This document shows, one piece after another, positions 41,526 to 45,387 of a stretch of DNA of 64,000 nt (position 1 is the first letter of the stretch; each line of letters begins with the position of its first letter). The stretch comes from Trachythela sp. YZ-2020 (Eukaryota > Cnidaria > Anthozoa > Malacalcyonacea > Clavulariidae). The notes under the pieces were generated by a model. The model saw only the letters and a list, made by a program, of their open reading frames with translations, did no database searches and was not told where the DNA came from. A program made the position numbers and the translations under genes. Location: assembly GCA_016169945.1 (NCBI GenBank), contig JADLSH010000369.1, positions 4,712,001 through 4,776,000 on the forward strand, in the 5' to 3' direction.

Positions 41526-41731
41526 TTAAGGTGGTCTTCCACTCAAGAAATACGAAATTTTCCCCCCAAAATTTCAAAGATGACATTGGTGTGACCTTGG
41601 ATGACCTTGGGAGTTTTAAAGGCGCCATATGAGCATGACCGTGAGCTTGACCTTAGTAGCTTAACCTGCCTAACCACCGCCGGAAGTAATTAGTATTCAA
41701 AATGGCGTCGCGTGCGCACGGGCACAGAATA

Positions 41732-41960
41732 CTATACAGAAGGTCATCTCTAGATTGTTTTTGCGTAAGCGCTATTCGTCACTCAGCAAGTGCCCTAAAC
41801 AGAACTACAGAAGCAGTCACCCCCCTGGACATATAGCCATTTTGAATGTTTCCAGGGGGGTGACTGCTTCTGTTTAGGGCACTTGCTGAGTGACGAATCA
41901 TGACGAATAGCGCTTACGCAAAAGCAATAAGAGATGACTTTCTGTATAGGTTAGTATTCT
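41732..41960. mobile_element. Long-hairpin insertion within the left inverted repeat
   Basis: An arm of about 95 bp (from CTATACAGAAGGTCATCTCT to CAGTCACCCCCCTGG) is followed after about 22 bp by its inverted copy (CCAGGGGGGTGACTGCTTCT onwards). The insertion separates parts of the left repeat that are contiguous on the right side. Confidence 0.75.
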
Positions 41961-41977
41961 GTGGCACGGGTGTGCGC

Positions 41978-42178
41978 CAGTGAACTATAAGTAAACTGGA
42001 ACGCTAACTCCTATGATCAAGTCCTATGATTCGTTGAAGCCAATGCGCGGGAATGTGAACTTTCAAAAGGACTGAGGAGAGTTCCGAGGAGTGAGAAAAA
42101 TTCCGTCAAAAGTTTGTTTTTGAGCGAAAATGTGCAAGAAAAATACTTTTTACATCAGAAGATACTTATAGTTCACTG
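41978..42178. mobile_element. 201-bp hAT-type MITE with near-exact 8-bp TSD
   Basis: CAGTGAACTATAAGTA and its inverse bound the element; the flanking octamers GTGTGCGC and GTATGCGC differ at one base. It lies in the left inverted repeat of the ATPase element and is therefore younger. Confidence 0.8.
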
Positions 42179-42186
42179 GTATGCGC

Positions 42187-42482
42187 ACGGTAGTAATTAG
42201 TATTCAAAATGGCGTCATGATATGTGCGCACGGTGTGCGCACGATAGTATTTGACATTATAATAAATAAAGAGAGCAAGAAATTGTTTTAAAAAATATTT
42301 TATTGAAAGAATATAACGTATTTATTAGGAAAGGTACTATAACTTTTAAGTGTTTGTATATAAATATAGTTCCCTTATCTGTTCATCGATCCTCTTTAGA
42401 GATGTTGTTATATGCTTCGACCTCGACTTTTGCGCAATGTTGTTTTGTATTAAATTACACACAACAATTTAAATGTTTCTCT
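42187..42482. repeat. Inner part of the left terminal inverted repeat
   Basis: Nearly identical in inverted orientation to 44281-44577. The same 60-codon open frame appears in both arms with one difference, which only reflects repeat identity. Outer parts are rich in alternating purine-pyrimidine GTGCGCAC. Confidence 0.85.
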
Positions 42483-43815
42483 TAATAATGGTTTCTTTAG
42501 CAAAGTCTCGGACCGTAGACTCGTCTTCGTGCAGATTCACCCATTTTATATGGCCTGTAGATTGGTGCCTTATTTTGACAGGCCAATAATGTTCGCCGTT
42601 GCTGTAGACACCCGGATGGCTAGGATAAACACTATTGTGCGACGATTTATACATCTCTATGATAGCATATCCTTTGGGAATGACACGAACGGTATCGGTT
42701 TTGTCGGTGTATTTTAGCCACTCGGGGATAGTTGCATCCGACCAGGTAATATACCGATGATGTTTAGGTTGTTTTCTTCCAGGCTTGGTTTCGACGCCAG
42801 AGACCGGTGTGGGTGTAGTCACTTTAGTTTGGGTGGTGAAGGGATAAACATGGCAGTCGCCAAATAGGTCTCCAAGAACTTGCTTATCGGTTGGTGTGTC
42901 AGGCTTGTTATCCACCAATAAGTATCCAAACGGTTTTTCGGTCTCTTTGTAATAGGCAGTCATGAAGCGGTCTCTATTCTTATCAAACATTCGTTCTCCA
43001 ACAATTCCAATTTGTTTTCTATCACTAGGACTTCGGAAGAGAGCAAGATATTGGGCATTTCGACTAATATCTGTATAAAATTTCCCCTTAGGAAACATGT
43101 TCTGAAGCAAAAGGATAACACTAGCGTTTCTATGACGACCCTGGGTAAATAATCGAGCTACCACAGGACTGTCTGTCGCTTCGGCCATTAGATCATCCAG
43201 TATGATTATGTTGTTGTACTTGGTATTGATCTCACTCAGATCATCGGACAGCTCGGGAAGACCTCTCTCAAACCGGATGCTTTTCCCAAGGGATTTTCTC
43301 AATTCGTCGTAACGATCTTGCCATTGATTATAACACCACCAGATACGAATTCTTCTCTGCTCCTCGTACACGATACGATTGTTTTCCAAAATTTGTTGGA
43401 CAAAATACGTTTTCCCACTTTGACTTGGACCCACGACTAATAGCGAAAATTTATAGCGGAAGTTGAATTCCGGATAGGGTTTGATGGTCAAAGATGCTTT
43501 AGCTTGTACTGCTTTTGGTTTCTTAGCTGGCAATGAGTGTGCACTTCGGCTTACACGCTTTTCTCCTGGCTTTTCGGAGTTCGTATATGGAGACTGGTAT
43601 TGCCATGACGACACCTGTGCATGCTTAAGAACGTGTTGTCTCTCTATGGATGGTAAGCCGTGAACTTGTGAAAGATGTGTACTGATGTTCTTTAAATTAG
43701 GCCGGCCGCAAACCGGACAGGTCCGAGGAAATCGTCTCGGCATGAGTGCTCCCGCAAATGATTCAAGTTTATATATAAATACAGTTCTATATATCAATGC
43801 TTTAAGGGTTTGCAA
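42469..43815 (-). CDS. A32/FtsK-like DNA packaging ATPase with N-terminal zinc finger
   Basis: An intact 448-codon frame; the natural start is probably the Met at 43741 (MPRRFPRTCPVCGRPN), since the preceding 25 residues are not conserved in the relative at 13979. The first 40 residues form a C-x2-C / H-x4-H finger (CPVC, HLSQVH). The ATPase core has Walker A GPSQSGKT, Walker B IIILDDLM (hydrophobic run, then DD), and a sensor-like stretch SVILLLQNMFPKG followed by ISRNAQYLALFRSP. These features place it with the A32/FtsK-HerA packaging ATPases of Polintons, adintoviruses and nucleocytoplasmic viruses. The C-terminal 110 residues (after YPFTTQTKV) are basic and Pro-rich, without a recognised domain. 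An intact frame in a polymerase-less element suggests recent activity or selection. It reads towards the left inverted repeat and ends inside its inner edge. Confidence 0.85.
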   Translation of the reverse strand: MQTLKALIYRTVFIYKLESFAGALMPRRFPRTCPVCGRPNLKNISTHLSQVHGLPSIERQHVLKHAQVSSWQYQSPYTNSEKPGEKRVSRSAHSLPAKKPKAVQAKASLTIKPYPEFNFRYKFSLLVVGPSQSGKTYFVQQILENNRIVYEEQRRIRIWWCYNQWQDRYDELRKSLGKSIRFERGLPELSDDLSEINTKYNNIIILDDLMAEATDSPVVARLFTQGRHRNASVILLLQNMFPKGKFYTDISRNAQYLALFRSPSDRKQIGIVGERMFDKNRDRFMTAYYKETEKPFGYLLVDNKPDTPTDKQVLGDLFGDCHVYPFTTQTKVTTPTPVSGVETKPGRKQPKHHRYITWSDATIPEWLKYTDKTDTVRVIPKGYAIIEMYKSSHNSVYPSHPGVYSNGEHYWPVKIRHQSTGHIKWVNLHEDESTVRDFAKETIIKRNI

Positions 43816-43825
43816 GGATTCTTGG

Positions 43826-44035
43826 GAATTCTGTAGCGGTTCCCTGGGGGTTCTCTCGGGTTTCTGTAGGGGTTCTCTCGGGGTTCTGTAGGGATTCTGT
43901 AGGGATTCTGTAGGGGTTCTGTAGGGGTTCTCTCGGGGTTCTCTCGGGGTTCTGTAGGGGTTCTCTCGGGGTTCTGTAGGGGTTCCCTGGGGGTCCTGTA
44001 GGGGTTCCCTGGGGGTTCTCCCGGAGTCGACCTAT
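43826..44035. repeat. GGTTCTGTAGG / GGTTCTCTCGG minisatellite
   Basis: About 17-19 copies of an 11-bp unit, GG(G)GTTCTGTAG alternating with GGGGTTCTCTCG. It lies exactly between the two divergent genes of the ATPase element, where their shared promoter region and the missing start of the second gene should be. Confidence 0.9.
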
Positions 44036-44081
44036 GAGAGCTTTAAGCGTCTGCTCATAAAAGTGCCGGCATAAAAGTGCC

Positions 44082-44207
44082 GTGCATGACTTTGATCCAG
44101 GGGAAGCTTTAGAAGCTGCTATTGATAAGAGGAAATTTCTTATAAAAAGACTTTTAAAGGATTACGATTTTGATGAGGAAGATGATGACGCAGAAAGCGA
44201 TGATTAA
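44082..44207 (+). pseudogene. Surviving tail of the acidic companion gene
   Basis: The plus strand reads DFDPGEALEAAIDKRKFLIK, then an Asp/Glu-rich end and stop TAA at 44205-44207. It corresponds to SFDPDEALGVAIEKRKFLLQ of the broken gene at 13247-13979. Everything upstream, including the zinc-finger start, has been replaced by the minisatellite and a short unrelated piece. It reads towards the right inverted repeat, opposite to the ATPase gene. Confidence 0.75.
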
Positions 44208-44280
44208 ACTCAGTCAAACGGTTTAATGCGGTTCGAGCTTTTGTTAAAGAAACCATGGCTAACGAACAATAAAGCCAAAA

Positions 44281-44577
44281 CTTATTAGAAGAAACATTTA
44301 AATTGTTGTGTGTAATTTAATACAAAACAACATTGTGCAAAAGTCGAGGTCGAAGCATATAACAACATCTCTAAAGAGGATCGATGAACAGATAAGGGAA
44401 CTATATTTATATACAAACACTTAAAAGTTATAGTACCTTTCCTAATAAATACGTTGTATTCTTTCAATAAAATATTTTTTAAAACAATTTCTTACTCTCT
44501 TTATTTATTATAATGTCAAATACTACCGTGCGCACACCGGTGCGCACGCCCGTGCGCACATATCATGACGCCATTTT
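44281..44577. repeat. Inner part of the right terminal inverted repeat
   Basis: Inverse of 42187-42482. Beyond it, 44520-44640 is a run of alternating purine-pyrimidine GTGCGCAC / ACGTGCGCACG blocks interleaved with ATTTTGAATACTAATTAC units, leading to the element end. Confidence 0.85.
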
Positions 44578-45387
44578 GAATACTAATTACTACCGTGCGC
44601 ACGTGCTCACGTACGCACGTGCGCACGCGACGCCATTTTGAATACTAATTACTTCCGGCGGTGGTTAGGCAGGTTAAGCTACTGACCTTGACCTGACCTG
44701 ACCTTGACCTGACCTTGACCTGACATTGTCCTTGACCTTAAATTATCCGTACATTATATTAAGCATGAAAACAGTTTACCCAGCGCTGTTCTGAAGGAGA
44801 AGTAAGACTTCATGGTACATTCCCTTTTTCTAATACTCCAATTTTAACATTTGTAACTCGATTTGCCGCAATTCAGTATATTGGCCTATCTGCAATAGTC
44901 TGAAAAGGATATCTCAAGAAATATTGGTAGGAATCATTTGAAACTTCCACAAACACTTATCCTTATATTGCTTCATGTTCTGAACAAAAAAAACACAAAA
45001 TGTTTATAACATAGCTATTGATTGACATGTCGTTGTTAACTTGTTAGCCTGCAGGCAAAATTATCCATGTATGCGGAAGAGTAAATATATTTCCATTTCT
45101 CATAAAATATATTAGCATTTCTCTGGTTCAGAACAAAGAGCAGCCTTTGCTGAACATTTTAAGGCTTTTTTGGAAAATTTAGGACCATCGGTTCTAAAGT
45201 TATTTTTTGCACAATACGTTGCCGACTTTCTCAGTTGGTGGTCCGTAACATGGTAACCATGGCAACAACATGTCAATTGAAAACATAGTTATACTCAGTG
45301 ATATTTTATCTTTCTATTGATACCAAACAACTATAAATTAAATAAAAACTAAAATTTATTTAATTTCGAGTGGAAGACCACCCTTAC

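Follow-up and report, generated by a model that had tools for sequence, protein, structure and literature searches.

The 64,000-nucleotide stretch of the genome of the anthozoan Trachythela sp. YZ-2020 analysed here (contig JADLSH010000369.1, positions 4,712,001 to 4,776,000; hereafter the window) contains a 3029-bp element, located at 41655..44683, that carries an intact gene for a zinc-finger A32/FtsK-type ATPase (gene A) and the remnant of a second gene encoding an acidic protein (gene B) between long terminal inverted repeats. The same terminal repeats also bound elements of 14-16 kb with a family-B DNA polymerase (PolB) and/or an rve integrase, and the A/B pair is the conserved two-gene cargo of a large family of small mobile elements in the host genome. 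We consider it slightly better than an even bet that the element is a non-autonomous satellite that depends for its mobility on a helper Polinton sharing its ends, and that brings its own packaging-type ATPase.

The element begins with AGTAG and ends with CTACT (GACCTT|AGTAGCTTAACC...GGTTAAGCTACT|GACCTT), its right end being the reverse complement of its left end. It is flanked by the 6-bp target-site duplication (TSD) GACCTT, at 41649..41654 and 44684..44689 on the forward strand. This copy sits in a GACCTT-rich flank and its duplication is weak evidence alone, the 6-bp rule being backed by other copies. The long, nearly identical inverted repeats reported in an initial annotation of the window were recovered in the repeat analysis as three blocks of paired arms, of 69 nucleotides (nt) at 99% (41655-41723/44615-44683), 52 nt at 100% (42182-42233/44550-44601) and 258 nt at 98% (42231-42488/44282-44539). 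The right repeat spans 44282..44683 on the reverse strand. The left repeat, on the forward strand, consists of an outer part (41655..41723, 99% identical to 44615-44683) and an inner part (42182..42488), into which the 3' end of the ATPase gene extends. These two parts are split by a 458-bp self-complementary (foldback) stretch (41724..42181), interpreted as an insertion into the left repeat and bounded by the two points between which similarity to the right repeat is lost. A stretch related to this foldback was also found at L002:3567-3749. Outside the element, another inverted repeat (41530-41561/45351-45382; 32 nt, 78%) flanks the window copy and possibly belongs to an older element hosting the 3-kb insertion.

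Besides the ATPase frame, a single stop-to-stop frame of more than 100 amino acids (aa) is present in the element. It encodes 119 aa and runs through a tandem repeat, which leaves no space for genes encoding a polymerase, an integrase or a capsid protein, in agreement with the initial annotation. Profile searches covered the ATPase frame only, and the other absences were judged from the size of the open reading frames (ORFs): no further ORF of the size of a protein-primed family-B polymerase, of an rve integrase or of major and minor capsid genes exists in the window element.

Gene A lies on the reverse strand (42469..43743) and encodes 424 aa from its first methionine. The frame is uninterrupted over 42469-44031, and its part upstream of this methionine runs through an 11-bp tandem repeat (43829..44019) that is open in the A frame. 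The assignment to packaging-type ATPases made in the initial annotation was confirmed at the sequence level: in a Pfam profile search, A matches Pox_A32 with 28.6 bits (E=1.3e-6) for a curated cut-off of 22.8, and this is its sole match above a curated cut-off. A also matches PHROG 2666, annotated as 'terminase large subunit' (E=2.7e-5), while a search of PDB sequences gave nothing convincing. The Walker A motif GPSQSGKT is located at 43408..43431 on the reverse strand (residues 105-112), and its K111 and T112 are invariant in a 40-sequence alignment. The zinc finger proposed for this protein is seen as a CPVC...H...H motif (43660..43719, reverse strand; residues 9-28), with C9, C12, H23 and H28 nearly invariant (at least 90%) in the same alignment, but it matches no Pfam zinc finger above cut-off. 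Moreover, nine short A32-type ATPases were sampled from the same genome, and a profile built from 40 homologues of A matches every one of them, with 18.9-24.7 bits (E from 6e-9 to 3e-7, nine sequences being searched), over Walker A, Walker B and the next conserved stretch. The longest open frames of these short ATPases are of 194-231 aa. Two of them (L063 and L069; C57 and C373) are near a listed PolB, and the other seven belong to the same family by sequence.

These matches bear on the function of the two genes. A and B might serve transposition itself, as an ATP-dependent target selector or an integrase helper, for which MuB and TnsC offer a comparison, and not packaging. Weak matches of A to AAA_22 and AAA_14, both below the Pfam cut-off, a match to TniB, also below cut-off (E=0.054), in the A relative P0117, and the lack of a capsid gene in the element would go in this direction. 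However, Pox_A32 is the only Pfam family reached above a curated cut-off, the PHROG match is to a terminase and the short A32-type ATPases of the genome are relatives of A. We therefore regard a transposition role as distinctly improbable.

We then compared substitution rates between copies of gene A. Purifying selection on the core of A (residues 92-300) is strong. When the window copy is compared with distant ones, non-synonymous divergence (dN) is 0.05-0.07 and synonymous divergence (dS) 0.67-0.85, i.e. a dN/dS of 0.07-0.10; over all pairs, which include loci overlapping each other (L031/L006, L035/L021 and L037/L017), the median is 0.12, and it rises to 0.30 for close pairs. Outside the core, dN/dS reaches 0.41 at the zinc-finger end and 0.67 at the C-terminal end, and it is 0.28 for gene B. 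This pattern fits long-term selection on active lineages together with decay of individual copies. Divergence is also unevenly distributed along the gene. Between the window copy and four others (L008, L010, L012 and L024), dS is 0.82-1.31 for residues 92-240, 0.27-0.33 for residues 241-300 and at most 0.19 for the rest. L001 compared with these four copies, L027 and L030 shows a dS of 0.8-1.5 for residues 92-240 and below 0.4 at the ends of gene A. This mosaic divergence suggests that ATPase cores were swapped between element lineages with different terminal repeats.

In the protein collection, 599 homologues of A and 618 of B were detected at E<=0.001. Three of the A homologues among the best 120 come from Actinostola, Exaiptasia and Porites, all anthozoans. 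P0117 represents a divergent ATPase branch, with 473 homologues at E<=0.001, and itself has two zinc-finger-like motifs; most of the best 120 homologues of this branch come from contigs about 1-18 kb long. Such contig sizes suggested free viruses of about 10 kb with A-type ATPases. This candidate was rejected, since two scans of viral contigs returned no relative and the contig sizes also fit fragmented host assemblies.

Of gene B, the window holds only a C-terminal remnant (44088..44207, forward strand), with a tblastn match at 44088-44180 and a stop codon at 44205-44207. The acidic companion described in the initial annotation is thus a tail in this copy, but a real second gene in its relatives: full-length B proteins of about 180-193 aa, acidic in their N-terminal half, were found in L006, L030 and others. 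Searches of B against PHROGs and Pfam gave nothing above cut-off, and its relatives P0127 and P0217 have a C2H2 zinc finger, also below the Pfam cut-off. In a structure model of B (mean pLDDT 66.6), the N-terminal third is disordered and helices occur within residues 61-166, with block means of pLDDT 82-95 for residues 61-130. The C-terminal domain is helical in this model.

Next, we searched the host assembly (578 Mb, 396 contigs) for relatives of the element. With the A frame, 92 matches were found in 83 scored places, the best 83 of 3617 first-look candidates; 45 of these 83 are stop-free across the matched stretch and 38 contain at least one stop. With B, the best 150 of 1522 candidates were scored, of which 47 adjoin a listed A, and 36 of the 83 listed A places are without a listed B. 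We read 38 loci, corresponding to 35 distinct elements (L031, L035 and L037 overlap L006, L021 and L017). A is present in all 35 and B in 33 (in 36 of the 38 loci), being missing in L005 and L029. Wherever both were found, they are divergent and on opposite strands, as the initial annotation had it for the window copy. The eight loci selected by their B match all contained A, although in three of them (L034, L036 and L038) A was not among the matches listed. A scan made regardless of flanks found an AGTAG inverted pair in 13 of the 35 distinct elements, and 9 of these 13 pairs are bordered by an exact 6-bp TSD (element lengths 2505-3519 bp), for which the chance expectation is 1 in 4096 per pair. 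As regards the search with the repeats and proteins that had been proposed at the outset, the relatives keep A and B together (33/35), and most of the paired ends have a TSD. In addition, the A/B pair recurs with different terminal repeats.

These data leave little to the idea of a decayed or domesticated remnant without element function, the second half of which had been raised in the initial annotation. Stops in 38 of the 83 best A matches and the loss of most of B from the window copy agree with decay. On the other hand, 45 of the 83 matches are open, the dN/dS of the core is about 0.08-0.12, and the TSDs and high copy number point to past mobility. We consider the chance of such a remnant to be very remote.

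We also looked for other elements with the same ends. The terminal 84 bp of the window element gave 53 matches in the host assembly (best 40 of 353 candidates scored). Window-type ends are paired 2.8-3.2 kb apart on C185, C279, C280 and C155, four cases known from their ends alone. They also border two long elements. The first, C82 (14.3 kb), is 93% identical to the window ends over 66 bp at both ends. It is a single insertion with the TSD AGCGTA and the sole long element read end to end. It encodes a 1347-aa PolB, a GRF zinc-finger ORF and a zinc-finger ORF that matches the A profile (40.5 bits, E=1.7e-12). Read whole, C82 shows no ATPase core, no rve and no B, and of A only this related zinc finger. 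Its inverted repeats are about 950 bp long and each contains the same 141-aa ORF (L073:358-783 and L074:6767-7192), with a weak bZIP match below cut-off (E=0.11). The second, C96 (16.3 kb), has a left end identical to that of the window element over 61 of 61 bp and a right end 95% identical over 82 bp. The 5.2 kb read from its start contain a disrupted PolB, with 88-91% DNA identity to that of C82, and an rve integrase 43% identical to that of C189, a Polinton of the same genome that starts with AGTAG and has the 6-bp duplication AACGTA. No A or B was found in these first 5.2 kb. C96 also has a putative penton-like ORF, and it may accordingly include a capsid gene.

A second repeat type (101 bp of L010) behaves in the same way. 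It gave 42 matches (best 40 of 302 candidates scored), forming 13 opposed pairs of 96-100% identity and 1.5-18.3 kb apart, which were assigned by the position and orientation of the matches. Among these pairs are small A/B elements (C258 and C142), a 6.3-kb pair with a listed B inside (C392), a 14.2-kb pair with PolB and rve between the repeats (C37) and two 15-kb pairs with rve between the repeats (C182 and C267:7619992). Small A/B elements and Polinton-type elements are thus both found between repeats of either type, and Polinton-type elements with matching ends, which the initial annotation suggested looking for, exist in the same genome.

The shared ends also raise the possibility that the element arose by plain internal deletion from a larger Polinton with A and B among its genes, and was amplified via its intact ends. 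In the initial annotation, copies with polymerase, integrase and capsid genes between the same repeats were to point to this origin. This holds in part: elements with a polymerase and/or an integrase do lie between the same repeats, and C96 may have a capsid gene as well. Polintons without capsid genes have been described (available text of PMC4028283), and a zebrafish paper uses the name Polinton-1N1, presumably for a non-autonomous Polinton (available text of PMC9341505). However, neither A nor B was found in C82 (related zinc finger only), in the first 5.2 kb of C96 or, among the matches listed, within 20 kb of the 105 listed polymerase places. A plain deletion derivative consequently does not follow from the shared ends, and a simple deletion of the long elements checked is unlikely. 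Moreover, the recurrence of the A/B pair with different terminal repeats and the selection on its genes indicate that the pair behaves as a stable unit. We therefore hold a deletion origin to be unlikely.

Then, we investigated the polymerase clade of the presumed helper. For C82-type PolB, the best 35 of 1310 candidate places were scored, some of them partial or broken. A dedicated rve is located within 14 kb in 23 of these 35 places (all 150 listed rows), and a relative of the 417-aa ORF of C82 in 8 (all 108 listed rows). Several copies of this ORF have longer open frames, of about 720-875 aa. Only one place has both rve and the C82-type ORF (C151, with a match at 33% identity), and five have neither. 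This clade thus comprises two largely exclusive subtypes, one with an integrase and one with the C82-type ORF. A listed Pox_A32 match was found within 18 kb of 45 of the 70 other PolB places and of none of the 35 helper-clade places (Fisher p ~6e-12, a value that overstates the case, since PolB copies are not independent and several are partial or broken). The Pox_A32 list holds the best 150 of 696 candidates, and 105 of these 150 are without a listed PolB within 22 kb, so that the Pox_A32 and PolB lists are both incomplete. As a divergent ATPase may fall below this list, the scarcity of ATPases near helper-clade polymerases is suggestive only. A broader candidate, that the Polintons of this genome are without ATPase, was rejected because of an A32 match at C189:3495489-3495938. 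The Walker A motif of C189 was first overlooked, the gene straddling the L060/L061 seam, and both halves were found by a later profile search.

This distribution would be expected of a split genome, in which a 14-16 kb helper would have kept polymerase and integrase but lost its packaging ATPase. A 3-kb segment would supply this ATPase together with its partner, and neither part could be packaged and spread without the other. Besides the contrast between 0/35 and 45/70 places, it is consistent with the integrases near 23 of the 35 helper-clade polymerases and with C82, read whole: there the short-ATPase profile found nothing below E=0.26, while the A profile matches the zinc-finger ORF only. 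Yet C82 belongs to the subtype without integrase, and reading of the integrase-bearing helper elements covered 5.2 kb of C96, with C37, C182 and C267:7619992 being known from matches. In addition, a divergent ATPase could escape the list of the best 150, the copies are not independent and the 35 places include several partial or broken ones, and an earlier form of this explanation, for ordinary Polintons, was refuted by the A32 match of C189. A split genome has, in our opinion, a modest chance of being correct.

For the satellite reading that we favour, the following mechanism can be proposed. The polymerase and integrase of the helper would recognise the shared termini and act in trans to replicate and integrate the small element. 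A may package DNA, perhaps as a dedicated DNA-translocating motor that fills helper capsids with the DNA of the element. The zinc finger of A could recognise this DNA and thereby give specificity, and B, acidic and helical, might be a partner or an adaptor of A. The long elements with matching ends would be of the autonomous type, their actual autonomy being putative. The satellite of a Polinton-like virus evoked in the initial annotation is thus supported as regards the ends, shared with polymerase/integrase elements, and the relationship of A with the A32-type ATPases of the genome, while mobilisation and packaging are putative.

Several observations weigh against this satellite reading. The window copy is without most of B, and an AGTAG pair was not found in 22 of the 35 distinct copies, some of the reads being too short for both ends. 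Four of the 13 AGTAG pairs have no 6-bp TSD: two of these (L013 and L019) resemble inner repeats, whereas L020 and L024 are complete-looking pairs. Long pairs other than C82 (whole) and C96 (one end) are deduced from the position and orientation of matches, and two of them, C368 (18.3 kb) and C267:2148500 (9.2 kb), contain no gene among the matches listed. The two scans of viral contigs yielded no relative. Finally, sequence motifs cannot tell packaging from another DNA-translocation role, and helper dependence and mobilisation are proposed here from sequence.

Other repeats occur in the window. A foldback-like palindrome is located at 40854-40938 (arms of 42 nt, 79% complementary, separated by 1 nt), a 1.3-kb array of the 15-bp unit CGACAACAACAACAG with a strong strand asymmetry at 8547-9834, and a pentanucleotide array of TTGCG type at 45918-46125, to the right of the element.

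Among known systems, Polintons/Mavericks are the closest to the window family, with which they share a 6-bp TSD (here in 9 of 13 AGTAG pairs). According to the available text of PMC8097293, vertebrate Mavericks have end motifs of AG/AGT type and 6-bp TSDs, to which the long terminal inverted repeats with AGTAG ends of the window element are comparable. A is related to short A32-type ATPases, some of which adjoin Polinton polymerases in the same genome, and the window element would thus have the FtsK/A32-type ATPase that characterises Polintons, in a distinct, longer form: 424 aa versus about 200 aa, extended at its C-terminus and bearing a zinc finger. Polintons are also 15-20 kb long, whereas the window element is of about 3 kb and without polymerase, integrase, protease or capsid. 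A reduced gene set is likewise known in capsid-less Polintons, of which nine elements without capsid, protease and ATPase together are described in the available text of PMC4028283; these elements lose the ATPase, while the window element retains it. The zebrafish Polinton-1N1 is by its name a non-autonomous Polinton (available text of PMC9341505), and its likeness to the window element is one of name only. Virophages and transpovirons depend on a larger virus, as the window element would. Transpovirons are episomes of 7 kb found in association with giant viruses (available text of PMC7031253), whereas the window element is of 3 kb, integrated in an animal genome and has ends that match those of its presumed helper. 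It also differs from phage satellites in host, ATPase family and termini. Such satellites are small elements that bring packaging factors, i.e. their own packaging function.

We found no description of an ATPase-only family of the Polinton group in the open-licence literature, Repbase and subscription papers being beyond the scope of this search. Non-autonomous Polintons as such seem to have a name already (Polinton-1N1). Polintons are thought to be endogenous viruses, with particles unobserved at the time of writing of the two sources (available text of PMC8097293 and PMC7805220). A selected, ATPase-bearing element sharing Polinton-type ends would suggest that packaging is under selection and offer a compact system in which to study it. 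A satellite that keeps a packaging motor without polymerase, integrase and capsid would also be the reverse of the loss described for capsid-less Polintons (available text of PMC4028283).

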